A stretch of DNA of 64,000 nt from Punica granatum (Eukaryota; Streptophyta; Magnoliopsida; Myrtales; Lythraceae), in assembly GCF_007655135.1 (NCBI RefSeq), contig NC_045129.1, positions 19,318,274 through 19,382,273 of the forward strand, given 5' to 3'. A program made the translations under genes and the position numbers. Positions 470 to 62,683 of the stretch are shown in pieces (the first letter of the stretch is position 1; each line of letters starts with the position of its first letter). The notes below the pieces were generated by a model. It ran no database searches and was not told where the DNA came from. It saw only the letters and a list, made by a program, of their open reading frames with translations.

Positions 470-782
470 GATTCGCGGACGTGCCCGTTTTTGCCCTCGC
501 TCGGACCTATGCCGCTCTCAACCGGCCACCGAGCGCAAAGGGATGCCGGCTTTACATTCATGTTCTTTTTTTTCGTGTGCTATGTTTTGTAAAACTATGG
601 AACTCCAATCTAATCAATGTAATGACATTAGCATTTTGAAAACTCATGCATCTCATACATCTTGTCATCTTATTTATTCCGTACTTGTCGTCCAAAATAT
701 CGACATTGTCCTTACACACTTTTGGAACTCTAGGTGATCGCAACTGGCGTCGCACCGTTACCCGACTCGTCAGCCTCTCAGG
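470..782 (+). other. Element E: ORF1-gag spacer
   Basis: Noncoding, partly A/T-rich stretch between the ORF1 stop and the gag start. The same spacer is found in A (19056-19374), in B (43677-43994) and, weakly, in C (about 51030-51200). Two splice-acceptor-like sites fall at its end: CTCTAG/GTGATC after 733 and CTCTCAG/GATGG after 781, one base before the gag ATG. Both positions are kept in A and B. Confidence 0.6.
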
Positions 783-15242: not shown

Positions 15243-15452
15243 CTGGAAATTCGAGAGAATCGTCTTAGAAAATTTATAATGTTGCGAAATAGAGAATAGG
15301 AGAGGGAGAAGGAATGCAAGGGAATTCAAAAAATGCGTGAGAGATTTCATTGATGTTGTGAATCAAAAAGCCATAATGGAAACCCCTCTCCGTCGTGTGG
15401 CGCATGGCTATGCCGACACGCGGGGAACATCTTATACATAGATAAGCCTTAC
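15243..15452 (-). other. Element A protease-RT intron (210 bp)
   Basis: Donor GATGT/GTAAGG at 15452 and acceptor TTTCCAG/GC at 15243. Removing the segment joins the protease exon to the RT exon in phase, restoring the V-L-H-S reading shared with B. An intron at this position is a known hallmark of Ogre elements. B has the same sites around a 214-bp intron (39841-40054). Confidence 0.8.
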
Positions 15453-16768: not shown

Positions 16769-19055
16769 ATACCCGTCCCGAGCATGTCAACCCCATGATA
16801 CTGAATTGCTGTTCAACGTTCCCGATGCTTCCTTTGTAGGTCCAAGGGACCTTGCTGTCTGAATATGGCTCCCGAGCGGGGACGTCAACGACGAATGGGG
16901 CCGATGAGGCCACGTGTCCCGTGAACCCGACCGTGAGTTCCTCGGGAGTGTAATTGATTACAAAGGGAGGGGGTTTCTCCTGCGCTTCTTCGTCCCTCTC
17001 CGAGACGCATACAGAGATCATGCTGATAGATGATCCCGGGTTCGGCCTATGGTCCGGGAGGGGGTTGGCTTGCACATTTGGAGGTCTGACGGCGTTGAAA
17101 GTGAGTCGGTTGCTGTCGATCCTCCTCTGAATTTCGCCCCTCAGCCTCCAACAATTGTCGAGAGTGTGCCCCAGTGCGCCCTGATGATACTCGCAACGTT
17201 TGGATTGGTCCTAGACGGACGGGTCGAAGTTCGGACCCGGGGATATCGGTTGAATCTGATCTTCTGCCAAGAGTTGCCGATATATGTGAGAGAGAGGAGC
17301 AGGCAGCGGCGAGTATTGTTTGCGGGGTCGGCTCGGTGGAGGAGTTCTCGACACCGGGGGCCTGGGTTGAGAGGGTTGAGCGGGGGCAGGCGTAAAGTGG
17401 TCGTATGACTGTGAGGTCGTCGGCGGCGGGATCGGTGGGGCTGAATAGTAGATCGACTAAAGTTGATGCTGCGGAGGCGGGAGAAAGTAGGTAGGAGCGG
17501 TGGTCGGTGCGGTTGTGAGATTCACCGAATATTGTTGTGGCTCCTGACGCGCCGTGTTGACGGCGTTGACCGAGACCTCTTTCGCTCTCCTCCCGCTGGA
17601 AGATGACGGCGCCGCGGGAGCCTTCTTTGACGACTCCTCTCCTTTGTTGGTGGGGTCCTCCATTCTTCCGAGCTTGATCCCCAAATCCAGCTTTTTCCCG
17701 GCCTCGATGAGGTCGGAGAACGACGAAGTGTGCGCCAACAGGTGTGAATAGTACACTCCTCTCAGCGTGGAGTGAAACAGTTGGATCTGTTGTGCTTCGC
17801 TGATCGGGGGAATGTGCTTTGCGGCTTGGGCGCGCCACTTGGGGGCATACTCCTCGAACTTTTGGCCTCGCGCCATTTCCTTCGTGCTCAGCTCCAAAAG
17901 GGTGGGAGGCGTTTCTGCACAATACCGATACTGGTCGGTGAACTTCCGAGAGAGATCCTCCCACGTCGGGATGTCCTCAGCCTTCAGTGACATGAACCAA
18001 TCGAGGGCCGATCCCGACAGGCTATCCTGGAAGGAGTGGATGACAAATTCCTTGTATTCCCAATACTGCAGCATCTTCCCTCGGTAATGGCGAAGGTGGT
18101 GGCGTGGATCCGTCGTGCCTTCATAGGTCTTGAACTTTGGAACCTTGAACTTCGGGGGCAGGCGCATACCCGGGAATAGGCTACAGTCGCCATAGCGGGC
18201 GTCGGGACGAACATCGTTCGCTTGCAGGGCCCGTATCGTTTCCTCCATTCGCTTCAACCTACGCTCCTGTTCGGCGTCGGCCTCAGGGAAGAAGTGTGTC
18301 GGTGAGGCGAATTGGGCCGCGTGGGTCGGTGTGCCCGGTTCGTGGAAGGCGGTGTTTATAGGAGGCGGCGCCTGGTAGGACAGGCCGGCGTGAGGCTGCC
18401 GAGGCGGATAGGAAGGAAGCTCAGTGGCTTGAAGGTGCGTCGGAGCAGGTGCGGTGGGTGCCGGAAAAACCGTCGGTGGAGGTACCGCATAGGTCATAGC
18501 CGGAGCCGGTATGGAAATTGGTGGAGGTGCAGACAAGATGCGCTCCGAGGATAGGAAGGTAGCCGGCGGAAGAGGGACTACCGAAGGGGCGGGTGACGGC
18601 GGGAGTTGACTGGTAAAGGGGTGAATCGTGGACGTATACAGCGCTGGCGGTGCGGGAGCCACGACATTTTCCGGGGCTTGGGTTGGTGGAGCCCACGGGG
18701 TTGGATCGACTGTTGGCCCCAGTCCCGGTGGGGGTGTGGAGCTCAAAGAGGCCTGGTTCGGTCCTCTGAGTAGGGCGAGCAGCTCTGCCATGTTAGTGGC
18801 CATTTGGTTGACCGTACCCTCGAGGGCCGCGATGCGGGCTTGGTCATTCTTGGCGGTGGAAGTTGGTGAGGCCGGTGGCAGAGGCGCTCCCGACAACGCT
18901 GGGGGCGGGAGATGTGTTGGAAGGGCACTGGAATACACCGGGAGTACGCCTGCAGGAGTGAAAGGCGGCGGGGCGTGTGTCTGCGATGGTTGAGAAAGGG
19001 TCGGGACCGAAGGGTTGACCTCTTCGGAAACATCAACGTGATCTCCTTCTGCCAT
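16769..19055 (-). pseudogene. Element A gag with zinc knuckle
   Basis: Gag packages the RNA into particles. It starts at the ATG at 19055 (MAEGDHVDVSEEVN). Residues ~20-255 are proline-rich, with a short helical stretch RIAALEGTVNQMATNMAELL at 74-93. The capsid-like gag domain runs ~300-470 (KTYEGTTDPRHHLRHYRGKM ... GSALDWFMSL ... ELSTKEMARGQKFEEY). A TAG at 17457-17459 ends the first 532 codons. The same frame resumes and reaches the nucleocapsid knuckle CEYHQGALGHTLDNC, preceded by another TAG at 17211-17213, then CSGRVYENPTAKD. Two stops mean no full gag. The C-terminal part overlaps a run of proline-rich chance frames on both strands. Confidence 0.9.
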
Positions 19056-19374
19056 CCTGAGACGTTGACGAGTCGGGTAGCGGTGGGACGCCAGTGGTAA
19101 TCACCTGCATTCCAAGGGTGCATAAGGACAGACACCGATAACTCGAATGATAAGTGCGGAATTAAGTAAAACGACAAAATGTATGAGATGCATGAGCTTT
19201 CAAAACACTAATGTCATCACATTGATTAGCTCCAAGTTCCATGGTTTTACAAAATAGAACATTCGGAAGAAAAGAAAGGAACATAAACGTAAAGCCGACA
19301 TCCCTTTATGCTCGGTGGCCGCTCGAAAGTGGCGTGGGTCCGAGCGAGGGCAAAAATGAGTGCGCCTACTAATC
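19056..19374 (-). other. Element A ORF1-gag spacer
   Basis: Noncoding, 319 bp, collinear with 470-782 in E and 43677-43994 in B. It contains two acceptor-like sites in the sense direction: ATGCAG/GTGATT (intron end 19105) and GTCTCAG/GATGG (intron end 19057, one base before gag ATG). Confidence 0.6.
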
Positions 19375-20880
19375 CTAAGGATGGGCGAGGTTGCGCGCCC
19401 TCTTGTGCACTCGATCCAACTCCGCGTCCAAGCGGGCCATCTCCCGGTCTAAGTGTGCGACCCGGGCGCGTGCTCGAGTCAGCTGTGTCTGAACCTCCCT
19501 GTAGTCCGCGACCTCTGCGCGGGAGTCAACAAGCTCGCAACGGAGCCTATCCCGTTCTTCCCTGACGGCCCGTAGCTCCGCGTGCATGGCCGCTTGGATA
19601 GAACTCTCGGCTTCAGGGGCGAGGGTGGATGTAGCGCGGGGAGTCGGGGTGGCCTGAGGCCGTTGTGGTGGTGTCGATCCTTGCGGGTAGAACCGGGCCA
19701 CGTATGCTGAGGTGGCAGAAAATGCTCGCTCCTCGTCGGTGGGGTGCTCGGGGAAGTACAGGCGCTGTATGGTGCTAGCATCCAGCTGACGGCGGATCTC
19801 CCGAATCTGTAGGAATCTATCGGGGGCCGTGGACGTGGAGTCGGCCCATTGGATGCGGAAAGGTAGGCGGTCCGCCTCGACGGGAATGTCCTGTAGGCCG
19901 CCGAGTTGTCTGATTACTCGGCTGGGAAATATGAGGGTGCTCCCCAAATGGCTGAGGAGGGGAACTCCTACAATTCCGGGACATCCCGTGATCATGAGGC
20001 CACCGGGATTCCATCGAGCGACCCATAGGAACCGTGAGGGCGTCAGCTCGCGCCAAAAGCGCCTCCATTCCGAGAAGCTGTGCTCGGGAGGTGGGATGAC
20101 CGGCGCCAAGCGTTCGATCAGCGAGTGCTTGTCGGCGATGTAGGAGAACGGATGTGACGAGCAGAACGGGCGGATATGAGCTAGAAGCCAAATCTGTAGC
20201 AAGTGCGGGGATCCTCTCATCCTTCCGCGCCGAACCTCCCTAACGTAGTCAAGAGACCGAACGGTCTCGGCTAACAAAGCCTCCACATAACTATGGCCTC
20301 CCACCGCTTGGAGGACGACTTGGGCTATAGCCCCGTCGATGAGGTTCGGCGAGTACGGGAACAGGAGGGTGCCAAAGATCAAGAGCAGGAATCCATGGCA
20401 AGTATCGCGCTGATAGGAAGCCGTAGTAGGAGTCATTGCGCGGATGAGCGTCCAATCGGAGAGCCATGCAATCCGGATGCCTTGATCCCACCTTTGATGA
20501 AGCTCCTCGTGGAAGTCTTGAGCGGGTATGCGGAGAAGAGTAGAGAGCTGACCCTGGACGGTTGTGAACGGGTTGGGTCTGAATATGCCTTGGGTCGTGG
20601 GTGTGGGCCTCTGGATGAGTGCCGTGTACTCCTCGATCGTAGGAGCTAACTCTGTCCCCTGGAAGTTGAATACTGCGTGCCCGGGATCCCAAAATTCGGT
20701 GGCAGTCCTCAAGAAGATCCAGTCTACCGGAGTCTCGGTGAGCATGACCACGTCTCCGATGATGTCCTGGATGAATGCGTGGTCCACCGGTCGGAGAGTC
20801 CTCCAGATGCGCATGATATCTTGCCTTGGCGGCGTGATTGCTTCGAGCCTAAGACCGAGAGCCGGGCGGTCCATCCTTAC
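19105..20880 (-). other. Element A putative intron enclosing ORF1
   Basis: Minus-strand donor CTAG/GTAAGG begins at 20880, six bases before the ORF1 ATG. Acceptors end at 19105 (ATGCAG/GTGATT) or 19057 (GTCTCAG/GATGG). Splicing would delete ORF1 and place gag as the first ORF. B has the same sites (63223 to 43726 or 43678, spanning the inserted C), and C keeps both sites without ORF1 (50632-51196). This is inference from sequence; I know of no transcript. Confidence 0.45.
19375..20874 (-). CDS. Element A ORF1 protein, intact (DUF7745-like, function unknown)
   Basis: A complete 499-codon frame from ATG 20874 (MDRPALGLRLEAI) to a stop at 19375. Residues ~1-390 resemble the DUF7745/plant-mobile-domain type proteins found widely as hypothetical proteins in plants: RTLRPVDHAFI, PTIEEYTALIQRP, HGFLLLIFGTLLFPY, LLQIWLLAHIRPFCSSHPF and FPEHPTDEERAFSA. 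Residues ~430-499 (AELRAVREERDRLRCEL onwards) are charged, with heptad spacing, and look like a coiled coil. It lies between the primer site and gag, the place of the extra ORF in Ogre elements. Its biochemical role is unknown to me. The start is supported by B, whose ORF1 begins at the same point with MDRPHPCLRLDDI. It is the only full-length intact element frame here. A donor-like site lies 6 bases upstream of the ATG. Confidence 0.9.
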   Translation of the reverse strand: MDRPALGLRLEAITPPRQDIMRIWRTLRPVDHAFIQDIIGDVVMLTETPVDWIFLRTATEFWDPGHAVFNFQGTELAPTIEEYTALIQRPTPTTQGIFRPNPFTTVQGQLSTLLRIPAQDFHEELHQRWDQGIRIAWLSDWTLIRAMTPTTASYQRDTCHGFLLLIFGTLLFPYSPNLIDGAIAQVVLQAVGGHSYVEALLAETVRSLDYVREVRRGRMRGSPHLLQIWLLAHIRPFCSSHPFSYIADKHSLIERLAPVIPPPEHSFSEWRRFWRELTPSRFLWVARWNPGGLMITGCPGIVGVPLLSHLGSTLIFPSRVIRQLGGLQDIPVEADRLPFRIQWADSTSTAPDRFLQIREIRRQLDASTIQRLYFPEHPTDEERAFSATSAYVARFYPQGSTPPQRPQATPTPRATSTLAPEAESSIQAAMHAELRAVREERDRLRCELVDSRAEVADYREVQTQLTRARARVAHLDREMARLDAELDRVHKRARNLAHP

Positions 20881-21465
20881 CTAGATGGAGGAGATGCCGG
20901 CTTAACGTTTTTAGAATCAAATCAATGTAATGTCCTAAGTCTTTTTCGAAAGAATGTATGCAGTGCGGAAAGATAAACTATAGTTGTGTTCTTTACAGTA
21001 TACATCGCTCTTTCTTACAAAAACAACAAAAATGCCCGTCCTAAAAAAAACTACGGGCCGACTCAAGGACTCGACTTTGGGTCGGTTGACGGCATGGAGG
21101 TAAAAATTGGTCCAGCATGACGGTCCCTGTGTATGCATGGTTTTCGGTGCTACTGGGAGAACCGCTAACTAGGCATGGGGGCTCCCGACTCAAGGGTGTG
21201 AATTCCTTGAAATCGAGCGAGGATCTTTGGGGGCCGGTTCGGTGGCATAGCCGACTCGATCCGTTCCCTTACTCGGAACCTCTGACTAACCTAACTTCCT
21301 ATATTGGTGCCCGTGGGATGTCGGACGAGGTACCTAAGAGACTAGTATGATATGCAATGCATGTGCGGAAAATAAAAGTGCGTAAAATAGATAAGCGGGA
21401 AATGCGGAAAGCGGTAAATAGACAAGCAAACAAAACAAGCGGGAACAAGCCCGAACCCTCTAAGT
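20881..21465 (-). other. Element A 5' leader between primer site and ORF1
   Basis: Noncoding, ~590 bp, collinear with B 63224-63805 and with C 50087-50631. No conserved reading frame. The block matching CGAGGATCTTTGGGGGCCGG is strongly conserved in all three, as expected for a packaging or dimerisation region, though that role is a guess. Confidence 0.55.
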
Positions 21466-43676: not shown

Positions 43677-43994
43677 CCTGAGACGTTGACGAGTCGGGTA
43701 GCGGTGTGACGCCAGTTGTAATCACCTGGATTCCAAGAATGTGTAAGGACAGACACCGATATCTCAAAACTTTTAGTAAAATGACAAAATGTATGAGATG
43801 CATGAGCTTTCAAAACACTAATGTCATTACATTGATTAGCTCCAAGTTCCATGGTTTTACAAAATAGAACATTCGAAAAAAAAAAAAGGAACATAAACAT
43901 AAAGCCGACATCCCTTTGCGCTCAGTGGCCGCTCGAAAGTGGCGTGGGCCCGGTTTAGGGCAAAAATGGGTGCATGAATCTGAGCCAACCCGCT
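43677..43994 (-). other. Element B ORF1-gag spacer
   Basis: Noncoding, collinear with 19056-19374. Acceptor-like sites end at 43726 (ATCCAG/GTGATT) and 43678 (GTCTCAG/GATGG). Confidence 0.6.
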
Positions 43995-44841: not shown

Positions 44842-46170
44842 TGTCAGCACCCCATTTTGGCCCACCGGCTTCCCGCATAAGGATTCCCGACTGAAGCTCG
44901 GGATACTATTCATCGCCCGGCAATCGGAGGCAAATAGGCGGGCACGGGGTCACGAACAATAAAGAAAAACACGGTCCACTGAGAAAGGCGGAAGAAAGCA
45001 GTCAGAAGAACAGACGAACGAGAAATCCCGAAAACAACGGAGCTGGCACTATGGTACTATTCATCACTGAGTCACCGAAGCACCGAAAGGTGCCCAATAT
45101 GGGGCTCCAAAAATCCCTCCCAGTGCCAAAATGACCAATGACACGTCCGGGCGCATTTCCGGGACATCCTGCTTAAGCCGGGACACCCCGATCCCCCACG
45201 GACGCCTTTTCTGACAGAACTCCCGGGGTTCACTCCACTGACAAGCAAACGGCCCCTCAAAACGGGTCTACAGGCGCCCAGGGACCACCAGGGCCGGGGA
45301 ACAAGTTTCAGACAACCTTCCGGAACTCGGCTCGATCTCCCGAAGTACGCTTCAGTGATCACGAACGCCTCCCGGTGAACCTTCGGGTATTTCCACGGAA
45401 AGCAGAGACCACAACGATCTCTGAGTACCTCACGATAACCTCCAAGCACCTCAAGGCATTCGGGGCACATTGAGAGAATCCCGGTCAAAGTCCCTAGGTC
45501 TTCCCGGGCCAATGGTCCCCGACCGAGGACGACGAGCCAACAATCAGCCGCGGGGCAAAAGGGTCGCCGAAGCGAATGCAAGAATGCACAAAGATCATCG
45601 GGGATCAAGGGACGCTAAACTCCACTCCAAACGTCCGAACAGGGCAAAACCGACTCCCGAGGCGCCGAATCGCCCGAACGTCCGTTCACGCGAAGCATGG
45701 CGATATTAGATTCATCCAAATCTTCGTCTTTCAAGCTTTCCAAATCTTCAAATTAATCGGACATCGGAGGTCGGATGCGAGCTCAATCAAGTCTCAAGCG
45801 TTTGCCGGCTTTTCTCCTAATCGGATGGGACCCACAGCCTAGCCAAGCTAAACCATTGAGCCGCGGCTCAACCCCAAGCCATGGCTCAACCCTCGGCTCG
45901 ACATGACAGCCCCCAAGCCGCGGCTAATTCCCTCACCGGCGGCTCACCCGTCGGCTCCAAGCCTCCCCATCCACAAATTTGAATTTTCCCTCACATCTTT
46001 CACTTCCTATCACATCCTTACACATCCATCACCTATCCATCACTTCCCTCTTGCTTCCCCTACACTCCACATGACTATTTCCCCATCCTAATCCCCTCCA
46101 AATTTCGGCAGCCCTAGTTTAGGCACCAAAACCGCAATTAACTTCCTCTAATCGAGCCATTAGCCATCCC

Positions 46171-46176
46171 TATAAG
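46171..46176 (+). promoter_or_regulatory. Putative TATA box of C 5' LTR
   Basis: TATAAG 1329 bp from the LTR start, with TTTAATCACTTCTTC about 25 bp downstream as possible start region. Confidence 0.55.
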
Positions 46177-47058
46177 TCCCCTTCCATCATTAACTTTAAT
46201 CACTTCTTCATTCTCCTTCTCTCTCAAGCCAATCTCCCTCTAAAATCCTCTCAACTTTCAGCCCACTCCCACAGCTCGTACCACTCCTTGCCAAGGCCGA
46301 AACCGGCCAAAACCGTCGGAAAACCACCCGGTATTCCGGTAACCACCCGACCCGACTTAAACCAAAAATCACCAAACTCCCTAGCCTACCTATTTTCCAT
46401 CCCCTAAGTCCGTTTCCGGGCTTAGATTTTCCATTTGAGGTCCCTAACATCACTTCCCAGCCAAAGTTGTAATCGGGTCCCGAGTCTCCAAGCCGCGTGC
46501 AACCGAGCTCCTCGAAGTGCCATTTTCTCCCGCGACTTCGGAGAGTCGTGCCATCACGTTCAAAGGGTTCCTCACGACCCTCACCCTCTCTCGTGAAGAG
46601 GTGGTCACGATCCGAGGGCCGATCCACGGTGCACAACCTCCGTTTCATTGTTTTTCACTTACCGGGTTTTCCGTGTTCATACCCGAACTTCTCTCACGTT
46701 TTTCGAGCTTGTCTAGGGCTCGGCACGCTCGGGTCTGCCCGTGCTCGTCTAGATCTACCTCTTAGGAGTCCAACGAGCCCGACCTTGCACCGTGCCGTGC
46801 CCGGAGCTTGCGTGCCAAGCCGTTCTCCCGAGACTAGCCGCGGCTGTTTTCTCTCGGATTGCTCACTTCCGCGACTTCAAGCCGAGTCTTGCGACTCCCA
46901 CGGCCACTTCTCCGACTCCTTCCTCGTGTTCCGAGGCTAGGTAAGACTCCTCTATGACTTAGAGAAGCTAGGTTCTTCAATATTTGTTTGATATGGGGTG
47001 TTAGGGGCTCATTTCGCATGATTTTCCTTAGATCCCGGGTTTGGCCCTTGAGCAACTT

Positions 47059-47706
47059 CGTGAACCATCCGACTTCGAAATGAGCTGAAATTTTTACCAC
47101 AGACTCTTGATGTTATTTTAAGTCCCCATACAAAATTTCAGATTTGTCTGTGCACTGGATCTCCGGATAAAAAATGTTTACCCGTTATTTCGGTATTCTC
47201 GGCCAGATTTTGATGTGTCTCGTGAACCATCCAAGTTCGAAATGAGCTGAAATTTTTACCACAGACACTTGATGTTATTTTAAGTCCCCATACAAAATTT
47301 CAGATTTTTCTGTGCACTGGATCTCCGGATAAAAAATGTTTACCCGTTATTTCGGTATTCTCGGCCAGATTTTGATATGTCTCGTGAACCATCCGAGTTC
47401 GAAATGAGCTGAAATATTTACCACAGACACTTGATGTTATTTTAAGTCCCCATACAAAATTTCAGATTTTTCTGTGCACTGGATCTCCGGATAAAAAATG
47501 ATTACCCGTTATTTCGGTGTTTCCGGTCTGATTTTGATAGATCTCGCAAACCATCCGACTTCAAAATGAACTGAAATTTTTACCACACATTCCTGATGTT
47601 ATTTTAAGGTTCCACACAAAATTTCATATTTTTATGGGTGCTGAAACTCCAAATAAAAATTATTTACCGAACTTTTCGTATATTCGACAAATCAGATCAC
47701 ACTGTT
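47059..47706 (+). repeat. 162-bp tandem repeat in C 5' LTR (four units)
   Basis: CGTGAACCATCC or CGCAAACCATCC begins units at 47059, 47221, 47383 and 47545, exactly 162 bp apart. The first three are nearly identical; the fourth is diverged. Each unit includes GATGTTATTTTAAG and CTGGATCTCCGGAT or its diverged form. Confidence 0.93.
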
Positions 47707-50067
47707 TTTTTTTGGTCTAATTTAGCCCTCTCCAAACTGAATCTAGATCCAAAATAGACCCCTTGACCCTGATCCGACTCTGTTTTCATGTTTATTACAT
47801 TTACGATTTACCTCGTTTTTCGTGCCGATGCCATTTTATTGATTCCATTATATATCATGTTTGTGTTTGTATTACATGTTTATTTGTGATTCCAAGACCA
47901 TGGTGGCATCGACTTTGTAAATGTGTGTGTCTTATTATGTTTGGCGTCTTACGCATGCAAGAAACGATTAAAACCGATTCTTGTAATTGATTGCAATTAC
48001 ATTTTTTGTTTAAATCATTAGCTTCACGGTTAATTTACATGTTAGGCGCATTAACCCCAAACAATCATCTCATTAGCCCATAATAATCAAGGTTTAACTC
48101 CTCAATCACTAAACCATGCCACAAACGAGAAATGGGACGCATCATTTGATTAATTAAATCACTCGGACTAAATAATTGGACAAATTGAATATTAATTCGT
48201 AAACGTATCGATGGTTCATGGAACGGCGGAAATGCCCTTTTCCTTAAAAGCTCATAATTTCAAAACATCGAGACGTGTAACACGAATAGAATTGTGTCTA
48301 GCAAGTACTCGCGTACTATGACTCGAGTCCGGGCCCAATTTGAGGCGGCTCGAGTCGAGATGCGCGAGTCCTCTTTAGACCTCTTCGTGTCACACGAGCT
48401 TTAATTTATATATGAACATCACATGTTTTACCACTCAAGGGCATAGTCGTCATTCCGTGATTTATCGATATCCTAGGCTTTAGGGAGTCGGAAACACCTC
48501 GATCTATGGACGGAAAGGGACGGCCCGTTCGGGTGCGAGTTTCATTCGTACGGCCCATTCCGTTCACTTTCGGTGTTTCTATCTTCCTATTGTAGATTCG
48601 GTGGTGAACCTTTTTATTTCAGTTGAAAAAGACGAAGAACCGGATTAATCATGTACTTGACTTAAATAAACATTAGATAATGGATAGGTGGAATATTAGA
48701 TTCCAATCTAGAGTCAAAACACGAGTTTGGCTAATTCAGTGAAACCGCAGTGACACTTAACTGAATAAGAGTCATAAAACAAACACACACATGTAATCGG
48801 CTTAGAACCTTATCCTAGCCCGCCCTCTATGTTTGCCTAGGTTAGATGCATTGTTTGCCAATCAACCACGGGTAATAACTGATTAAATCACGTACATTCG
48901 ACTTAATACACCACTTGTCTGTATTCACCGACAATTGTCAGTTGCTTTCTGTATCGTGTCAGTTACATCAGTTTTCTTCCGTTTTATTCTTGCTTTTGAT
49001 GATTTATTGCGGTTCGGGCCAGAACACATAAGTCACGTGTTGCATGGGGTCCAACGCCCCAAATCACCGAACACGAGGTCCAACGCCTCTTAACTCACCG
49101 AGCGCGTGCAACCCGAGTGCGGAATGGGATCTAGCCTCGATTCACCGTCACACTCCGAATACGGCCTATGTGGAAGGTGGATTTGGATTGAGCGCGTGAA
49201 ACGTGTTTAGATATCACCCGGGAGCTCGATCGATCCAACGGTTACAGTGGAAACAAGTCGTTTTTCTGCAAACCGACGGTTCGATCGGACCCGACCCCCG
49301 GCTCTTTGAGCCCGCGTTGCCTTAATTTATTTATCGGTTATTCAAAATACAAGGTGAGCAGGAGCGGAAAATTGGCCCAATGCAAACCGATCGGGATCCA
49401 TTTACTTATTCGGTTATACTTTGTAATTGTTCGAGAGAACATTGTGAGGATTCTATTTGTATGTTCATTCATCTCCTTGTAAGGATCCCCGATCGGTGAG
49501 CGAGAGGTCCGAGTGCTGGATCGGTTAAGTTGGTCTATCGCCACCAAAGGGTGAGTAAGCTTGGATACTCGTGGTTTCGGTTCACGCAGGGAATCAACCA
49601 TCACGGTTCGATGAACTGTAACGCTAAGATAGTGAACCGACTCCTCGATGCACAAGCCTACTCATCTTTCGGACTGTTGGTCCAACTTGATCAATTCATC
49701 GAATTTACGGTGTCAAAACGGGCGAGTCGAGCGCAACTCTAAATCACGCGGTAAATAAACAAAATGGCAAGCCTAGCAAGCTAGAGTACCGAGAGGGCGT
49801 GCGGGATATAGGCCCGCACGTAATAGAACCCCCGAATTCGGAATTTTCGGTTCCGTACGACCATTGCCTTAGCATTTAGGTGTACCCCGTACCCCTAGAC
49901 CCGGGTAACTTGCCGGCCCTCGACCCTCGGGTCGTAAAATGGCAAGTGGCGACTCCTTCTCACGTGCGTCCGTCGCGCGTCCCCGGGAAGGTGGACACTC
50001 CCAAGCCGCGTTTGCTTAGGCGCGCGCATGCGTGCCCCGACAAGATGAAATTCGGGTGCGCACAGCT

Positions 50068-50086
50068 TGGCGACTCCGCTGGGGAC
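50068..50086 (+). other. Element C primer binding site (tRNA-Arg)
   Basis: TGGCGACTCCGCTGGGGAC, three bases after the LTR end, one base different from the site in A. Complementary to a plant tRNA-Arg 3' end. Confidence 0.88.
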
Positions 50087-50631
50087 ATCTAGAGGGTTCG
50101 GGCTCAATCCCGTTTGCTTGCTTGCTTGTTTATTTACTGCTTTCCGTCGTTTACGGCTTATCTACTTACGCACATTTATTTCACGCATGCATTGCATATC
50201 ATGCTAGCTTTAGGTGCCTTGTCCGAAATCCCACGGGCGCCAAAATAGGAAGCTAGGTTAGTCAGAGGTTCCGAGTAAGGGAACGGATCGAGTCGGCTAT
50301 GCCACCGAACCGGCCCCCAAAGATCCTCGCTCGATTTCAAGGAATTCACACCCTTGAGTCGGGAGCCCCCATCCATAGATAGTACGGTCCTTGTAGCACC
50401 GAACCATGCATCGTGCTATGCCTCCATGCAAGCCTTCAACCCGACGCCGACAACAGTCCATCGAGTCGGCCTGCGTGCCACTTGAGTCTTTTCCATTTCA
50501 AGAGCGATGTACATGTAATTTCTATTAAGCCGTGGGCATTTACTCTCTTCGCACACATGCATCATGCAATTTTCAAAAAATAGGACGTCATTCATGTTGA
50601 CGAGTCCTAGGCGGATTTTCCTGTCGTCTTG
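50087..50631 (+). other. Element C 5' leader
   Basis: 50087-50400 is close to the leaders of A and B (TTAGTCAGAGGTTCCGAGTA, GATCGAGTCGGC). 50400-50631 aligns more loosely and ends with GTCTTG/GTAAGG, the counterpart of the donor that precedes ORF1 in A and B. No reading frame of note. Confidence 0.65.
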
Positions 50632-51196
50632 GTAAGGGACGCCTTGCTCGGCCTCCTGCCCGCGCCTCGGCAGAGTCCACCAGAACACAAGAACCTCACC
50701 GACCCGCCACGAAATGCAGATGGCGTATACTCTGGGACAGCATGATCGACCTCATCAACACTAGGTTCGATCACCGAGAGGTCGCTGAGAAACGAAGAAC
50801 TCACCGGCCAACCACCTCAGAGGGAGCTCTCCCAAACTCGTGCCAAGATGCAGAGATGCGGTCAGGAGCTCGCTTGAGCGAACGCCGCCCTGGAGAGGTC
50901 TAGGAAAGGGCCTCATGAAGACCCACACATGCACTCTAGGATAGATATCTCCGCAAGGCCCTCGCCTAGACCCGGTGCTTTCCAAGGCAGCGCTCGCTCA
51001 AACCCCGAGTGTGGTGGCAAATCAGCTTAAGGCTCTATTTTACAAAATTTGCATTGTACTTTGAACCTTTCGAGTCAATGTGAACGACAACATTAGCTTT
51101 TGAAAACTCACGCATTGCACGCATCCTATTTATTTACTATTTTACACGAGAATTAACACTACCACACGGTAGACAAAGTTGTGACCGCCTTTGCAG
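50632..51196 (+). other. Element C putative intron in place of ORF1
   Basis: Begins GTAAGG at 50632 and ends CCTTTGCAG at 51196, before GTGGATC, which aligns with GTGATT or GTGATC after the acceptor in A, B and E. 51030-51160 resembles the ORF1-gag spacer (TTTTGAAAACTCACGCAT). ORF1 itself is absent. Confidence 0.4.
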
Positions 51197-51768
51197 GTGG
51201 ATCTCTCGTGGTCCTCACCCTTCCTCCACGGCAAGACGATCAGTAGCTCAAGGGCCAACCATCTAAACAACACTAACTCCCCATTAATCCCGCGCAATCG
51301 ATTACGTCATTGCATGGTTGAGCACACGTCCCTCGATGCTACAAGTGCTTCCACCAGCACAACAGTGTGCCCTTTCCGCGTCGTGCGAGCACACCCCTAC
51401 CTTGCCCATGCACGCATCCTCGACACACCTTGTGCATGTCCCTCAGCGCGCTCGCACGAGGCCTACCAGGCTAGTTCAATCCCCTAAGCCCTTACGCTGA
51501 AATCGCGAATATAGTTTGCTCCTTCATTGTTTTCTTTCCCATTGTAGAAAATTCTACACAAGAAGACAGCATGAATACTGATCGACCACAATTGAGACAA
51601 CAAACGTCTTACATCCATCCAGCTCCTTGGGATTTCAACACTAAGTCCTCATCCCTGCTCCACAAAGCAAGACCGCAAGCAAATTAGCGTCACCGCATTG
51701 CAGCGCCTCACGCTATTCCTCAGCATTGACCTTTGCTTTCGCATTTCTTGCACTTTCCTATCAACCCC
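51197..51768 (+). other. Element C unassigned interior
   Basis: No similarity to gag or other parts of A and B that I can see and no convincing frame. Small frames at 51191-51487 look like chance. Confidence 0.4.
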
Positions 51769-52799
51769 GCATTTACTGCATCGGGTTTCGGCCCCGCATC
51801 GGGCTCCGGCCCCGCATTTATTGCATCGGGCTTCGGCCCCGCATCGGGCTCCGGCCCCGCATTTATTGCATCGGGCTTCGGCCCCGCATCGGGCTCCGGC
51901 CCTGCATCGGGCTCCGGCCCCGCATTTATTGCATCGGGCTTCGGCCCCGCATCGGGCTCCGGCCCCGCATTTATTGCATCGGGCTTCGGCCCCGCATCGG
52001 GCTCCGGCCCTGCATCGGGCTCCGGCCCCGCATTTATTGCCTCGGGCTTCGGCCCCGCATCGGGCTCCCGCCCTGCATCGAGCTCCGACCTCGCATTTAC
52101 TGCATCGGGCTTCGGCCCCGCATCGGGCTCCGGCCCTGCATCGGGCTTCGGCCCCGCATCGGGCTCCAGCCCTGCTTTGGGCTCCGGCCTCGTATTTACT
52201 GCATCGAGCCTCGGTCCCGCATCGGACTCCGGCCCCGCATTTATTGCATCGGGCTTCGGCCCCGCATCGGGCTCCGGCCCCGCATTTACTGCATCGGGCC
52301 TCGGCCTCGCATCGGGCTTCGGCCCCGCATCGGGCTCCGGCCCCGCATTTACTGCATCGGGCCTCGGCCTCACATCCGGCCCCGCATCGGGCTCCGGCCC
52401 CGCATTTACTGCATCGGGCCTCGGCCTCGCATCGGGCTCCGGCCCTGCATCGGGCTCCGGCCCCGCATTTATTGCATCGGGCCTCGGCCCCGCATCGGGC
52501 TCCGGCCCTGCATCGGGCTCCGGCCCCGCATTTACTGCATCGGGCTTCGGCCCCGCATCGGGCTCCGGCCTTGCATTTACTGCATTGGGCTTCAGCCCCG
52601 CATCGGGCTCCAGCCCTACATCGGGCTCCAGCCTCGCATTTATTGCATTGGGCTTCGGCCCCGCATCGGGCTCCGACCCTGCATCGGGCTCCGGCCCTAC
52701 ATTTACTGCATCGGGCTCCGACCCTGCATCGGGCTTCGACCCCGCATTTACTACATTAGGCTTCGACCATACATCGGCCTCTGGCCCTGCATTTACTTT
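51769..52799 (+). repeat. Element C first array (45-bp and related units)
   Basis: GCATCGGGCTTCGGCCCC (18 bp), GCATCGGGCTCCGGCCCC (18 bp) and GCATTTATT or GCATTTACT (9 bp) alternate, typically as a 45-bp unit with extra 18-mers. Because every part is a multiple of 9, frames stay open for 350-435 codons on the plus strand and 217 on the minus strand. These are repeat artefacts. The array fades out at 52800-52980 into segments reading ATTTACTGCTTTCGGGC. Confidence 0.95.
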
Positions 52800-54474
52800 T
52801 GGGTTTCGGCCCTGCAGCGGGCTCCGGCCCCATTTTTGGGCTTCGGCCCCGCATGGGGCCTCGATCTTGCATTTACTGCTTTCGGGCCTTGGTCCTACAT
52901 TTACTGCTTTCGGACCCCGGCCCAGTATTTACTGCTTTCAGGTTTTGACACCTCGCATCTACTGCTTTCAGGCTCATCTAAAGTCAAAAATCGACTTGGA
53001 TTCAGATTCATCCAAGCGATACTCTGAGGAGCAAGTCTAATCCTTCAACCGCAAAAGATCACAAGCAACGGCTCTGACGAACAGAGCATGGCCCTGCCCA
53101 CCCGTCGCGAGAGTCACTAGCACGGTCACATCTCCGACTGGAGAATGATCCCTGCCCACCCTCCACTGTGGCCATCAACCAGCCACTAGGGCAACATGCA
53201 CTTTTCCCTAAACTCTCCTTTTACATTTATCTTAATACATTCCCAAGCGGACTCCGGACAAGAAAGGGGCATTAGGACAGTTCTCAGGACGCCCTATTGG
53301 TTTTGTCGGAATTGTTCGATTCGTCTGTCCTCCTGGGATCCGGCTTCTCGAGCCTTCCCTAGGACGGCTGTGCATGCCAACCAGCAATTGGGGAAAGTAC
53401 GCCTATACGGCTCACGATCACAGTCTGACCACCCCAGGGTGGTGATGATTAGACTCCCGGAATTGAGTGTCCCCCACGCGCGGCACCCACGGGTCGCGCG
53501 CTGGATGAGGGAACCTCCCATGGGTCCACCTTACATTTCTTACCACACATTCCACCGCATAATCGCCTAATGCATCATCCTCTTTGTCATCCTTCACAGG
53601 GACACGCCAGTCGCGGGCGAAGAGCGATGCACGGGTTCACACCTCCCCGAGAACTCCTATCGGGTCTTTCTTCCTATACTTTAGTAGGGAAGGGCCCGAC
53701 AAGGAGGTACCCCCTATGAAGCCGACGACGGAAGCATCCGAACGAGCTGCATGCCTTCAGCGCAACCGTCTCAATCGACAAACAAACATGCCTATCGGCT
53801 TCGAGAGCACACCTTTCCGGCGTACAACTGATGCTGGAACCACAAGCACGATCGGGGACGATGGTTGTACAAGACGCCCGACACAAATCATAAAGACCGG
53901 GGCATCCCCGTCCAACATTCACGCGGAGGCAACCTTGGTCATCCACGCTCCTGGGGCAATTTTGTTTTCGTTTTAGACAATAGGGGAAAGGACTTGTAAA
54001 GTTTGCAAGGACAAAAGACGCGAAGTTCGGCTTTTGAGTGCACAAGTATCAGACTTCTGAGAAAACCAGCCCTCACAAAATTGGGCTAGGACAACAAAGT
54101 ACATTAAGTCTCCATGGGGCGAAGCAAACAAAAGCAGCCTCGATGATGCAAAGTCAAGGAGTTTCAAACAAGTACAAGGGGCACAATACAGACCCCAGCT
54201 GCGAGAAAAAAAACAGAGCGAAAAGAAGCGGGATAAACCCGCCAATGAAGAGAGAGAGAAAAGAAGCGGGAAAAACCCGCCAATAAAAAATGGGGCAATG
54301 CCGAGGTTCACCAAAAGCACTGGCACCCCCGATCCAAAAGAAATGAACAAATCCCAACAAAAAGGGAAGCAGCAGTCGCAACTCCTCGACGGAGACAGAG
54401 CGTAACGCACTCGAACGTCGAATCATTCGAGCACTTCGCCCTTGCAAACTCGAGAGATAAAAGAATCGAGCCCG
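52800..54474 (+). other. Element C unassigned interior
   Basis: 52800-53000 is diverged array. 53000-54474 has no recognisable gene, no RT or gag motif on either strand, and no match to A or B that I can see. Confidence 0.4.
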
Positions 54475-54504
54475 CTAGGTCGAAAACCCCTCGGGGCGAC
54501 CTAG
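54475..54504 (+). ncRNA. Conserved stem-loop in C 3' region
   Basis: CTAGGTCG (54475-54482) pairs with CGACCTAG (54497-54504), eight perfect pairs, and CCCC pairs with GGGG inside. The counterparts in A and B have CCTC with GAGG inside and CTAGGTCG with CGGCCTAG outside. It is classed as ncRNA only because it is a putative RNA structure inside the transcript. Confidence 0.5.
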
Positions 54505-55994
54505 GCAAAAGCTAGGGCAAAAGAGAGGCATGACCGAAAATCCCGAGGCGGGCGGTCGTGGCAAAAGGAGAGTTCATCCCCTTTAGGTTGAGAGGTGCGG
54601 CCCCGAGGTGGGTGACCGTAGTAAAAGGAGAGCAAAACGAGAGATAAACAAAACAGTCACCCGAGGCTCTCGCACACTGCGCGAGCTAGGGATCCCCAAG
54701 GGAAATGGCCAGGATGTCTACTCCAACGCGATCCCCGATCGGCTCTTCAACATAACTCAACTTTCCAAGGCGGATTCTTCCCCAGGCGTAGTGGACAACC
54801 GAGCACGCCATCCGAGGAGTTTGGCGCAGCCCACACCGCGGAAAGACAAAAAGGGGTACATTTCGCTGCAGGCGTGAACCCGTGTATCCTTTTAGCTTGG
54901 GGCAACGTGCTCTCTAAGCTTTCTCTTTTCTCCTTGTCATTTACATAACTCCAAAATGGGTCACAGCCACCCTTCAATCGGCTACCACAAAGCCAAAATC
55001 CTAGACATTTCTTTCCAGGAGTCTAGTCATAACACTCTGAAAATGACTAGACCGAGGTCTGACCAAATTTGAACAAAATTCCCCATGCGGGTTACAAATG
55101 CAGCCGCCCTACGGCACCTTGATAAGAAGGGTCCTAAGTTCACAGGCGCGTCGAACAACCGATAGAGCCGCTTGGGCACCTTTGAGAACGTCTCGATATG
55201 CCCATGCAAGGCCAACAGGAGCCCCGAAGGCCCCACATCGGGGCCTCTGAAAGCGGGATCCCATTCGCATCGCTAAAACAAAAACTCTTTGCGGGTCGCT
55301 CAGGCGACCCGAAACTAAAGAGCATGCGTCTCAAAGACATCTTTTTACCCACGCTTACACGTTGTTAGTAACCTCCATGACTTACTAATGATGTCAGGAT
55401 CACAAGTACAACAAACGCGGGAACTACGGCAGACTCTGATTCCCGACTCCTCGGGATACGTAGGCACTTTACCCCAGAGTTCGAATCCCTCATCGCACAA
55501 CCGGGCATCCCTAGAGAACTACAATCGCCACTGTGACAGAGCTGACATTCGGCAGGGCAAAGAGTAACCGCCCTAGCAGCAAAGCCGGCTTCCGGCAGAT
55601 CAAACACACCGCCACCCCAAGGGCAAAGCATCGACGAAGCAACTTCATCGCAGCAGCAACGCCAATCTGCAGCAGATCAACACCTTCGGGACAGCATCAG
55701 CCCTGTACACTTGGCGCGCGCCACTGTCCACATGACTAACGAAGAGTTATGCTCTTCTCTGCAGATACGCATGGAACCCCGGGGGGCATCTCATTCCTGA
55801 CGAACACGCGATTGGCTTGTGCGACAGATTGGGGATTCGAACCGAGTGGAAGGCATAACAGAGAATTCTCTTGGCCCTAACTCAAGGAAAAGACAGATAA
55901 CAAGCTCGATTTGGAACGGGACAGTCTACCTCTGCCGACATCCCCGACGAACTACTTGGCATCCTTTCCCGCCCTTACTTTCCCTTGCTCTCTG
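54505..55994 (+). other. Element C 3' region
   Basis: 54505-54640 has degenerate stem-loop repeats (GGCAAAAGGAGAG). 55800-55994 is collinear with the reverse complement of B 35394-35580 (GATTTGGAACGGGACAG, CATCCCCGACGAACTACTTG). The middle is longer than in B and unassigned. Confidence 0.6.
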
Positions 55995-57361
55995 TCCACT
56001 TTACCGCTTTCCGGACTTCGCGTCCACGGACTTCGCGTCCATTTTACTGCTTTCCTCGGGCTTCGGCCTAGTGACTTTACTGCTTTCCGGACTTCGCGTC
56101 CACGGACTTCGCGTCCATTTTACTGCTTTCCTCGGGCTTCGGCCTAGTGACTTTATCGCTTTCCGGACTTCGCGTCCACGGACTTCGCGTCCATTTTACT
56201 GCTTTCCTCGGGCTTCGGCCTAGTGACTTTACTGTTTTCCGGACTTCGCGTCCACGGACTTCACGTCCATTTTACTGCTTTCCTCGAGCTTCGGCCTAGT
56301 GACTTTATCGCTTTCCGGACTTCGCGTCCACGGACTTCGCGTCCATTTTACTGCTTTTCTCGGGCTTCGGCCTAGTGACTTTACTGCTTTCCGGACTTCG
56401 CGTCCACGGACTTCGCGTCCATTTTACTGCTTTCCTCGGGCTTCGGCCTAGTGACTTTACTGCTTTCCGGACTTCGCGTCCACGGACTTCGCGTCCATTT
56501 TACTGCTTTCCTCGGGCTTCGGCCTAGTGACTTTACTGCTTTCCGGACTTCGCGTCCACGGACTTCGCGTCCATTTTACCGCTTTCCTCGGGCTTCGGCC
56601 TAGTGACTTTACTGCTTTCCGGACTTCGCGTCCACGGACTTCGCGTCCATTTTACTGCTTTCCTCGGGCTTCGGCCTAGTGACTTTACTGCTTTCCGGAC
56701 TTCGCGTCCACGGACTTCGCGTCCATTTTACCGCTTTTCTCGGGCTTCGGCCTAGTGACTTTACTGCTTTCCGGACTTCGCGTCCACGGACTTCGCGTCC
56801 ATTTTACTGCTTTCCTCGGGCTTCGGCCTAGTGACTTTACTGCTTTTCGGACTTCGCGTCCACGGACTTCGCATCCATGTTACTGCTTTCCTCGGGCTTC
56901 GGCCTAGTGACTTTATCGCTTTCCGGACTTCGCGTCCATTTTACTGCTTTCTTCGGGCTTCGGCCTAGTGAGTTTACTGCTTTCCGGACTTCGCGTCCAC
57001 GGACTTCGCGTCCATTTTACTGCTTTCCTCGGGTTTCGGCCTAGTGACTTTACTGCTTTCCGGACTTCGCGTCCATTTTACTGCTTCCCTCGGGCTTCGG
57101 CCTAGTGACTTTACTGCTTTCCGGACTTCGCGTCCACGGACTTCGCGTCCATTTTACTGCATTCCTCGGGCTTCGGCCTTGTGACTTTACTGCTTTCCGG
57201 ACTTCGCGTCCACGGACTTCGCGTCCATTTTACTGCTTTCCTCGGGCTTCGGCCTAGTGACTTTATCGCTTTCCGGACTTCGCGTCCACGGACTTCGCGT
57301 CCATTTCACTGCTTTCCGGACTTCGCGTCCACGGACTTCGCGTCCATTTTACTGCTTTCCA
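55995..57361 (+). repeat. Element C 3'-UTR tandem array (76-bp units)
   Basis: About 17 units. Each has GGACTTCGCGTCCA twice (the reverse complement of B's 15-mer), TTTTACTGCTTTCC, then CTCGGGCTTCGGCCTAGTGA and CTTTACTGCTTTCC. The first bases (TCCACTTTACCGCTTTCC) are the 43-bp type of B. The array takes the same place and orientation relative to the element as in B. Confidence 0.95.
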
Positions 57362-57602
57362 CGGGCCTTGGCCCTGCACATGCTGTCGTATGGGGTTTAG
57401 ACCCCTCATCTAAATTTCATAATGTTCGCTTCCTAATCAGGTGGCTACCCTATGACAGGTCCGGGCACCTTCGCACATCCTCCCTAAGTATCCAACACGA
57501 GGGAGCAAGCTATCACAGAGAGCGATAACAGAAGCGGTCGCCGGGACCAAAAAGGGTGCCTCTCATGGTCTTTGGCTACATCCTCTAACCGAGCATGCAA
57601 CC
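57362..57602 (+). other. Element C segment between array and purine tract
   Basis: Close to the reverse complement of B 33685-33930 (CTAATCAGGTGGCTACC, GGTGCCTCTCATGGTCTTTG). No gene. Confidence 0.7.
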
Positions 57603-57616
57603 AAAGAGGGGCAAGC
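57603..57616 (+). other. Element C polypurine tract
   Basis: AAAGAGGGGCAAGC directly before the 3' LTR. Confidence 0.87.
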
Positions 57617-58945
57617 TGTCAGCACCCCATTTTGGCCCACCGGCTTCCCGCACAAGGATTCCCGACTGAAGCTCGGGACACTATTCATCGCCCGGCAATC
57701 GGAGGCAAATAGGCGGGCACGGGGTCATGAACAATAAAGAAAAACACGGTCCACTGAGAAAGGCGGAAGAAAGCAGTCAGAAGAACAGACGAACGAGGAA
57801 TCCCGAAAACAACGGAGCTGGCACTGTGGCACTATTCATCACTAAGTCACCGAAGCACCGAAAGGTGCCCAATATGGGGCTCCAAAAATCCCTCCCAGTG
57901 CCAAAATGACCAATGACACGTCCGGGCGCATTTCCGGGACATCCTGCTTAAGCCGGGACACCCCGATCCCCCACGGACGCCTTTTCTGACAGAGCTCCCG
58001 GGGTTCGCTCCACTGACAAGCAAACGGCCCCTCAAAACGGGTCTACAGGCGCCTAGGGACCACCAGGGCCGGGGAACAAGTTTCAGACAACCTTCCGGAA
58101 CTCGGCTCGATCTCCCGAAGTACGCTTCAGTGATCACGAACGCCTCCCGGTGAACCTTCCGGTATTTCCACGGAAAGCAGAGACCACAACGATCTCTGAG
58201 TACCTCACGATAACCTCCAAGCACCTCAAGGCATTCGGGGCACATTGAGAGAATCCCGGTCAAAGTCCCTAGGTCTTCCCGGGCCAACGGTCCCCGACCG
58301 AGGACGACGAGCCAACAATCACCCGCGGGGCAAAAGGGTCGCCGAAACGAATGCAAGATTGCACAAAGATCATCGGGGATCAAGGGACGCTAAACTCCAC
58401 TCCAAACGTCCGAACAGGGCAAAACCGACTCCCGAGGCGCCGAATCGCCCGAACGTCCGTTCACGCGACACATGGCGATATTAGATTCATCCAAATCTTT
58501 GTCTTTCAAGCTTTCCAAATCTTCAAATTAATCGGACATCGGAGGTCGAATGCGAGCTCAATCAAGTCTCAAGCGTTTGCCGGCTTTTCTCCTAATCGGA
58601 TGGGACCCACAGCCTAGCCAAGCCAAACCATTGAGCCGTGGCTCAACCCCAAGCCACGGCTCAACCCTCGGCTCGACATGACAGCCCCCAAGCCGCGGCT
58701 AATTCCCTCACCGGCGGCTCACCCGTCGGCTCGAAGCCTCCCCATCTACAAATTTGAATTTTCCCTCACATCTTTCACTTCCTATCACATCCTTACACAT
58801 CCATCACCTATCCATCACTTCCCTCTTGCTTCCCCTACACTCCACATGACTATTTCCCCATCCTAATCCCCTCCAAATTTCGGTAGACCTAGTTTAGGCA
58901 CCAAAACCGCAATTAACTTCCTCTAATCGAGCCATTAGCCATCCC

Positions 58946-58951
58946 TATAAG
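58946..58951 (+). promoter_or_regulatory. Putative TATA box of C 3' LTR
   Basis: TATAAG, 1329 bp from the LTR start, as in the 5' LTR. Confidence 0.5.
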
Positions 58952-59834
58952 TCCCCTTCCATCATTAACTTTAATCACTTCTTCATTCTCCTTCTCTCTC
59001 AAGCCAATCTCCCTCTAAAATCCTCTCAACTTTCAGCCCACTCCCACAGCTCGTACCACTCCTTGCCAAGGCCGGAACCGGCCAAAACCGTCGGAAAACC
59101 ACCCGGTATTCCGGTAACCACCCGACCCGACTTAAACCAAAAATCACCAAACTCCCTAGCCTACCTATTTTCCATCCCCTAAGTCCGTTTCCGGGCTTAG
59201 ATTTTCCATTTGAGGTCCCTAACATCACTTTCCAGCCAAAGTTGTAATCGGGGTCCCGAGTCTCCAAGCTGAGTGCAACCGAGCTCCTCGACGTGCCATT
59301 TTCTCCCGCGACTTCAGAGAGTCGTGCCATCACGTTCAAAGGGTTCCTCACGACCCTCACCCTCTCTCGTGAAGAGGTGGTCACGATCCGAGGGCCGATC
59401 CACCGTGCACAACCTCCGTTTCATTGTTTTTCACTTACCGGGTTTTCCGTGTTCATACCCGAACTTCTCTCACGTTTTTCGAGCTTGTCTAGGGCTCGGC
59501 ACGCTCGGGTCTGCCCGTGCTCGTCTAGATCTACCTCTTAGGAGTCCAACGAGCCCGACCTTGCACCGTGCCGTGCCCGGAGCTCGCGTGCCAAGCCGTT
59601 CTCCCGAGACTAGCCGCGGCTGTTTTCTCTCGGATTGCTCACTTCCGCGACTTCAAGCCGAGTCTTGCGACTCCCACGGCCACTTCTCCGACTCCTTCCT
59701 CGTGTTCCGAGGCTAGGTAAGACTCCTCTATGACTTAGAGAAGCTAGGTTCTTCGATATTTGTTTGATATGGGGTGTTAGGGGCTCATTTCGCATGATTT
59801 TCCTTAGATCCCGGGTTTGGCCCTTGAGCAACTT

Positions 59835-60320
59835 CGTGAACCATCCGACTTCGAAATGAGCTGAAATGTTTACCACAGACTCTTGATGTTATTTTAAGTC
59901 CGCACACAAAATTTCAGATTTTTCTGTGCACTGGATCTCCGGATAAAAAATGTTTACCCGTTATTTCGGTATTCTCGGCCAGATTTTGATATGTCTCGTG
60001 AACCATCCGAGTTCGAAATGAGCTGAAATGTTTACCACAGACACTTGATGTTATTTTAAGTCCCCATACAAAATTTCAGATTTTTCTGTGAACTGGATCT
60101 CCGGATAAAAAATGTTTACCCGTTATTTCGGTGTTTCCGGTCTGATTTTGATAGATCTCGCAAACCATCCGACTTCAAAATGAACTGAAATTTTTACCAC
60201 ACATTCCTGATGTTATTTTAAGGTTCCACACAAAATTTCATATTTTTATGGGCGCTGAAACTCCAAATAAAAATTATTTACCGAACTTTTCGTATATTCG
60301 ACAAATCAGATCACACTGTT
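59835..60320 (+). repeat. 162-bp tandem repeat in C 3' LTR (three units)
   Basis: Units start at 59835, 59997 and 60159. The last is the same diverged unit that ends the four-unit run of the 5' LTR. Confidence 0.93.
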
Positions 60321-62678: not shown

Positions 62679-62683
62679 CCGTC
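62679..62683. repeat. Target-site duplication of C, right copy (CCGTC)
   Basis: CCGTC directly after the LTR end, matching 44837-44841. Confidence 0.93.

Follow-up and report, generated by a model that had tools for sequence, protein, structure and literature searches.

Splice-like sites bracket ORF1 upstream of gag in Ogre-type retrotransposons of pomegranate: a possible facultative intron

How can a retrotransposon that carries another long reading frame between its leader and gag have gag translated? The question is raised by a stretch of Punica granatum DNA of 64,000 nucleotides (hereafter the window), in which a frame termed ORF1 precedes gag and is bracketed by sequences resembling a splice donor and splice acceptors. 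An earlier note on this DNA had taken ORF1 for a retained or alternative intron whose splicing would let gag become the first frame. We arrive at a more guarded version of this proposal: the sites are real features of several elements, and we put the probability that ORF1 lies in a facultative intron at roughly 45%.

The window is a nest of Ty3/gypsy LTR retrotransposons of Ogre/Tat type, whose LTRs measure about 5 kb. Its layout is as follows.

5' LTR end at 21488 and 3' LTR end at 4826, minus strand: element A
21487-20875, minus strand: leader of element A
19375..20874, minus strand: ORF1 of element A, 499 aa, DUF7745 (PF24924) match, E 5.3e-25
17457..19055, minus strand: gag of element A, Retrotrans_gag match, E 1.6e-6
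64000-62679, minus strand: element B, the 5' part of an element split by C
44841 downwards (piece at 36-45 kb), minus strand: element D, the 3' part of the B element
44842..62678, plus strand: element C, a LARD inside the B/D ORF1, with TG...CA LTRs that are 97-99% identical and the duplication CCGTC
1 to about 1780, plus strand: element E, a partial copy

In element A, gag is followed by a frame with a G-patch domain, an RT with two RNase-H-like domains (the RT ORF matches RVT_1, RT_RNaseH and then, at residues 603-721, RVT_3), an integrase in the next ORF and the 3' LTR; GGCGACTCCACTGGGGA, a candidate for the PBS, comes after the LTR. The ORF1 protein of A is also plant-mobile-domain-like, with a match to PF10536 (E 2.7e-5) that is under the curated cut-off of that family. 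Among 24 aligned ORF1 proteins, DUF7745 was found in 23 and the plant mobile domain in 11 (E up to 0.01). The best 120 of 157 ORF1 homologs and the best 120 of 269 gag homologs are Punica granatum gene models. Scans of the 64-kb window with Rfam (gathering thresholds) and for tRNAs gave no matches, and a scan of the RT protein against viral contigs and genome contigs gave no relatives. Between gag and RT (15515-17964, minus strand), A has several overlapping frames and an in-frame stop just before the protease-RT intron described below, so that this copy is unlikely to be fully intact. B and D are one element, the ORF1 of which was split by the recent insertion of C with a 5-bp target duplication (CCGTC); donors can therefore be compared in three elements and acceptors in four.

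This organisation recalls Ogre, an angiosperm Tat lineage for which PMC6317226 describes an extra RNase H between RH and INT (shared with Retand), an additional ORF ahead of gag that encodes a plant mobile domain in 57% of the Ogre elements, an intron region between the GAG-PROT and RT-INT ORFs, and a PBS complementary to tRNA-Arg. The elements studied here likewise have LTRs of Ogre-like length, a further RNase-H-like domain between RT-RNase H and the integrase, and an extra ORF upstream of gag with a relative of the plant mobile domain (under the cut-off in A). They also appear to share the intron: in A, a putative GT-AG stretch between protease and RT (15452-15243) would keep the frame, and the GT and AG are aligned in D. 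The difference is one of position, for the described Ogre intron lies between protease and RT whereas the sites considered here stand upstream of gag and bracket ORF1. A limited literature search, covering the accessible parts of its sources, found no report of an intron bracketing ORF1 upstream of gag.

The sites themselves, with the protease-RT intron as a yardstick, are the following (a slash marks the putative splice point).

20875..20880, minus strand: donor-like GTAAGG of A; the CTAG before it is acceptor-like, making a dual AG/GT site
63218..63223, minus strand: dual site CTAG/GTAAGG of B, before the ORF1 ATG at 63217
50632..50637, plus strand: donor-like GTAAGG of C, preceded by TG, not AG (CTTG/GTAAGG)
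19104..19109, minus strand: first acceptor-like site of A, TGCAG/G, then GTGATT; last intron base 19105
43725..43730, minus strand: first acceptor-like site of D, TCCAG/G, then GTGATT; last intron base 43726
729..734, plus strand: first acceptor-like site of E, TCTAG/G, then GTGATC; last intron base 733
51190..51197, plus strand: acceptor-like site of C, TTTGCAG/G; last intron base 51196
19056..19062, minus strand: second, weaker acceptor-like site of A, TCTCAG/G, adjoining the gag ATG at 19055
21285..21294, minus strand: leader donor-like site of A, TTAG/GTTAGT; the intron would begin at 21290
15243..15452, minus strand: Ogre-type protease-RT intron of A, GT/GTAAGG...TTTCCAG/GC, 210 nt, frame kept across it

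The donor-like site that the earlier note had placed ahead of the ORF1 ATG in A and B is indeed there: CTAGGTAAGGATGG has just two occurrences in the window, 20884-20871 in A and 63227-63214 in B (both minus strand), and the ORF1 ATG directly follows GTAAGG in both (20874 and 63217). The two acceptor positions proposed for A, B and E were also recovered, except that those ascribed to B sit in D, the 3' part of the same element; the second, TCTCAG/GATGG, falls at 19057/19056 in A, 43678/43677 in D and 781/782 in E. The leader AG/GTTAGT is present in B (63627) and C (50257) as well as in A.

The sites were scored with an approximate plant splice-site matrix and ranked, in A, against all GTs and AGs between 21488 and 18850. 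With this matrix, the first acceptor of A (19105) is the best of 151 AGs, and its counterparts rank 2/79 in D, 4/54 in E and 1/97 in C. The donor at 20880 comes second of 112 GTs, behind the leader site 21290, which also heads the 69 GTs of C; the GTAAGG of C (50632) is third of those 69. Over both strands of the whole window, the score of the A donor is reached by 24 of 7030 GTs and that of the A acceptor by 4 of 7142 AGs. A canonical donor and acceptor of high rank thus occupy conserved positions upstream of gag, in a small number of elements and by an approximate matrix. Their conservation between A and B says little, since the two leaders share 92-98% of their sequence as far as about 20910 anyway. 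The protease-RT intron of A, which has GTAAGA...TCTCCAG at the aligned places in D, scores below the ORF1 sites (donor -1.70 vs 4.23, acceptor 1.89 vs 5.41). A and D carry this Ogre-type intron sequence, hence the spliceosome probably acts on their RNA.

The base composition changes at the first acceptor. Between the end of ORF1 and the acceptor, T makes up 35.2% in A, 36.7% in D and 34.0% in E, with 9, 8 and 8 ATGs, respectively; between the acceptor and gag it makes up 20.4, 20.0 and 20.4%, with no ATG (in D the division was placed one base away from the site). In A, the acceptor is separated from the gag ATG by a 49-nt AUG-free segment. Plant introns are usually U-rich and exons GC-rich, and the step at the acceptor resembles such an intron-exon border. 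However, this holds for the last 270 nt of the would-be intron and not for ORF1 itself, which in A has 19.9% T and 59.7% GC, a composition unlike that of a typical plant intron.

The most economical reading, which we offer as a prediction from the DNA, is a facultative intron from 20880 to 19105 removed by ordinary splicing, the donor being its uncertain half. The Ogre/Tat clade already has one known facultative intron. In a share of the full-length transcripts, the spliceosome would join a donor upstream of ORF1, most likely CTAG/GTAAGG at 20880, to GCAG/GTGAT at 19105/19104, thereby removing the ORF1 AUG, ORF1 and the U-rich, AUG-rich spacer. The spliced RNA would have the AUG-free segment before gag, with gag as its first long frame, and the unspliced RNA would be both genome and ORF1 messenger. 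We infer the use of the sites in splicing, its frequency and the choice of donor. What does not stand is the stronger statement that splicing makes gag the first frame: removal of 20880-19105 would leave seven leader ATGs in A, and six lie upstream of the dual site in B, so that gag would come first only with a donor in the leader, 21290 for instance. Seen from that donor, the leader ATGs of A divide into one before 21290 and six between 21290 and 20881, those of B into 1 and 5 (cut 4 bases off) and those of C into 2 and 9 (at aligned points); a donor like 21290 would thus leave one leader ATG in A, the LTR part of the RNA being uncounted.

Element C offers a comparison. It is a LARD, with a young LTR pair, a target duplication, neither gag nor pol, and a conserved leader and 3' end. 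The claim that C had lost ORF1 is accurate as far as it goes, but gag and pol are absent as well. Internally, C is similar to A along its initial 355 nt, its final 98 nt and some short patches within, and its spacer was found by profile: a profile of A, D and E, with C left out, matches it with E 2.3e-6. As had been noted, C keeps GTAAGG at 50632 and, for the first acceptor, TTTGCAG ending at 51196, but the second acceptor is absent from it, and its donor differs from that of A by a T in place of the A before the G. Measured from the beginning of the final leader block that the two elements share, GTAAGG lies 132 nt away in A as in C; the distance between a common spacer block and the final base of TGCAG is 100 nt in A and 98 nt in C. 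A MAFFT alignment did not bring the sites of C into register with A, a stricter-gap A-C alignment failed on the acceptor side, and gapped alignments with 85% and 81% identity over aligned columns carried 164 and 157 gap columns, which is too permissive; the match in C therefore rests on spacing and short blocks. Moreover, C keeps the sites and has no gag, so that freeing gag cannot explain their retention there: C supports the sites, not the gag-release purpose.

C also bears on the possibility that there is no splicing at all, the motifs being start-codon contexts and ancestral sequence and gag being translated from unspliced RNA through reinitiation, shunting or internal entry. Part of the conservation does have another explanation, since AAGGATGG and CAGGATGG also make good contexts for a start codon: an A stands at -3 and a G at +4 of each ATG. 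The A and B leaders are 92-98% identical in any event, ORF1 is not U-rich, and the seven leader ATGs have to be passed in any case. On the other hand, C has neither start codon and retains GTAAGG and TGCAG/GTG at aligned spacing, the first acceptor lies 49 nt from the gag ATG, outside its start context, and the elements also carry the Ogre-type protease-RT intron sequence. We therefore hold this explanation to be doubtful, though it deserves to be taken seriously.

Is 20880 a donor, as the facultative intron would have it? The earlier note had considered it as a donor only, a description that is not supported, since the same point also scores as an acceptor. The window holds 371 AG/GT junctions, of which eight score as both donor (at least 4.0, a value reached by 33 GTs) and acceptor (at least 2.0), with cut-offs set after the scores were known and an approximate matrix. 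Half of these eight are the ORF1-bracketing sites 20880, 63223, 19104 and 43725, which amount to two positions rather than four independent events because A and B/D are related. When at least 70% pyrimidines upstream are added, three of the 371 remain: 20880 (0.79), 63223 (0.71) and 35621. The features of a recursive site (a pyrimidine tract, YAG and a regenerated GTAAG donor) are all present at 20880.

Gene models speak to the same point, within limits. Among 225 pomegranate gene models, with junctions judged from the peptides, six (P0029, P0052, P0068, P0091, P0105 and P0107) join upstream residues exactly at Val-Arg-Met, that is, at /GTAAGGATG, and so enter 20880 as an acceptor; a seventh, P0027, begins at the Val of Val-Arg-Met. 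The upstream peptide differs in each of the six: five resemble LTR-end or PBS sequence by eye and that of P0068 could not be placed. The in-frame TAG before GTAAGG in A and B excludes read-through, provided that the modelled copies share it. Donor use of 20880 cannot be shown by protein models, as the leader is non-coding. At the other end, twelve of the 225 models switch at the 19104 acceptor, in frame 0 (P0013, P0026, P0047, P0079, P0109, P0153) or in the gag frame (P0038, P0111, P0113, P0121, P0141, P0162); for the gag-frame models, the protein does not reveal the exact base. P0059 and P0105 were judged by eye to read through the first acceptor, P0077, P0098 and P0120 join 9 nt upstream of the gag ATG, and P0037, P0095, P0142 and P0145 enter right at the gag Met, where use of the second acceptor would lead. 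These CRG98 models appear to stem from a pomegranate genome paper, which describes a combination of ab initio prediction, homology and transcript mapping (PMC5999313); as they are partly ab initio or homology-based, we rejected them as proof of splicing. The second acceptor (19057) was placed below the first despite its four models, given its lower score (rank 17/151), its absence from C and its position in a start context.

The acceptor-like behaviour of 20880 could mean that one leader donor, 21290 or a site at the LTR end, is spliced to two acceptors, 20880 giving an ORF1 messenger and 19104 a gag messenger, so that the AUG-rich leader would be an intron as in retroviruses and pararetroviruses; 20880 might serve again as a donor afterwards. 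The first rank of 21290 in A, the AG/GTTAGT common to B and C, the six models entering 20880 from different upstream peptides, the TAG that would bar read-through if shared by the copies, the pyrimidines before 20880 in A and B and the removal of six of the seven leader ATGs of A are all in its favour. Yet use of 21290 is seen in none of the six models, and the variety of their upstream donors points to ab initio guesses; the dual site of C reads TG instead of AG and retains GTAAGG; and U amounts to 35% in the 5' part of the leader and 26.6% in the part that would be intron from 21290, the reverse of the usual contrast. We consider a common leader donor unlikely, without dismissing it. Against the facultative intron itself we count the GC-rich ORF1, the models that use 20880 as an acceptor, the leader ATGs left in A, the read-through in P0059 and P0105, and the four and three models that join at, or 9 nt upstream of, the gag Met. 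It is tempting to go further and to see ORF1 as a switchable cassette between dual AG/GT points, in a retrovirus-like programme of three RNAs parasitised by the LARD C. Entered as an acceptor, 20880 would yield a clean ORF1 messenger; used as a donor to 19104, directly or recursively after leader removal, it would yield a clean gag messenger; the unspliced RNA, which keeps a 119-nt block just downstream of the leader donor, would be the packaged form; and C would have retained nothing but the cis signals. If true, this would be a three-RNA programme in a plant Ty3/gypsy element, and we regard it as an improbable extrapolation.

The 119-nt block (21175..21293 in A, minus strand; 50254..50372 in C, plus strand) is identical in A and C and differs in B by one inserted C, the flanking leader being less alike between A and C. 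It starts at the leader donor-like site and holds a short frame, MPPNRPPKILARF..., which also opens gene model P0086. We regard it as a candidate packaging or translation element. Its fold is marginally stable (z -1.73, 9/200), and the complete leader shows no unusual degree of structure (z +0.92, 20 shuffles). We also found, by looking, a complementarity between the leader and the spacer that separates ORF1 from the acceptor.

20920..20932, minus strand: leader arm of A, CATTACATTGATT, complementary to 19215-19227 (lead only)
19215..19227, minus strand: spacer arm of A, AATCAATGTGATG, between ORF1 and the acceptor, with one G-U pair in A and none in B/D

The leader arm stands 40 nt upstream of 20880. 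The arms form 13 Watson-Crick pairs in B/D (0 of 200 shuffles), 13 pairs including the G-U in A and, at the corresponding place in C, 11 pairs with two G-U, a value reached by 2.15% of 2000 random segment pairs. Such a helix could draw donor and acceptor together. A duplex of the whole leader and spacer regions does no better than shuffles, which reach the observed energy in 120/200 cases for A, 48/200 for B/D and 134/200 for C; it was dropped and the 13-nt helix alone kept as a lead. A homology between the leader and the ORF1-gag spacer was likewise set aside, the pairwise tests being mixed (45, 3, 1, 84 and 95 of 300 shuffles reach the score) and profile searches unconfirming. These elements could instead mean that the flanks of ORF1 are kept for the genomic RNA (packaging, dimerisation, long-range pairing), with splice-like motifs lying within or beside them. 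The identity of the 119-nt block between A and the coding-less, recently moved C fits this idea, as does the 13-nt complementarity, but the whole-region energies that fail to beat shuffles, the ordinary leader fold and the marginal block make it very improbable as the explanation of the sites.

The ORF1 of B/D looks like a swapped module. Identity between A and B/D, taken in 100-column windows, is 92-98% in the leader as far as about 20910; it falls to 48-80% in ORF1 and rises again to 85-95% in the spacer and 78-95% in gag. The ORF1 pieces of B/D (62679-63217 and 43994-44841, minus strand) belong to another lineage than that of A, while leader, spacer and gag are A-like. Synonymous divergence between A and B/D is 1.6-2.0 in ORF1 vs 0.46 in gag, which indicates that the B/D ORF1 came from another lineage and was swapped between A-like flanks. 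The breakpoints lie near the start and stop of ORF1, and the downstream one does not match the acceptor position. Between A and B/D, dN/dS is 0.13-0.22 in ORF1 vs 0.11 in gag; comparing A with E over a short stretch of gag (72 codons) gave 0.40. ORF1 has thus been under purifying selection and translated, so that splicing, if it occurs, has to be partial. A gag RNA freed of ORF1 by splicing, if it exists, would answer the question posed at the outset and would fit an ORF1 that is swapped or lost as a unit.

The predicted facultative intron has partial parallels elsewhere. In the Ty1/copia elements BARE1 and EVADE, facultative splicing yields a short messenger dedicated to GAG (PMC3735527 and PMC8892269); it would make a gag messenger here too, except that theirs stops Pol synthesis downstream of gag, whereas here the intron would lie upstream and remove another ORF. 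A 2025 review reports a nuclear protein made from spliced RNA for Cer1 of C. elegans (PMC12786077). In the elements studied here, as in retroviral or pararetroviral leader splicing, a leader donor with alternative acceptors would part an accessory protein from gag. Unspliced retroviral RNA yields Gag first; here, in contrast, ORF1 would be the first product of the unspliced RNA, and gag would become accessible through splicing. Finally, pomegranate has the highest ratio of young LARDs among the plants compared in PMC5999313. Element C, with LTRs and a 5-bp duplication, no gag or pol and a conserved leader and 3' end, resembles these LARDs but retains splice-like sites, of which the accessible part of that paper makes no mention.

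A few further features of the nest were observed. Element C contains internal minisatellites, of about 45/18 bp at 51.7-52.9 kb and of 76 bp at 55.8-57.4 kb. In the 3' part of D, a 43-bp tandem array with long open frames (33913-35400) gives a DUF4277 match with no single stretch passing, probably caused by the repeats. Within the 5' LTR of A, 22679-27231 is an apparent solo LTR on the plus strand with ACCGG at both flanks.
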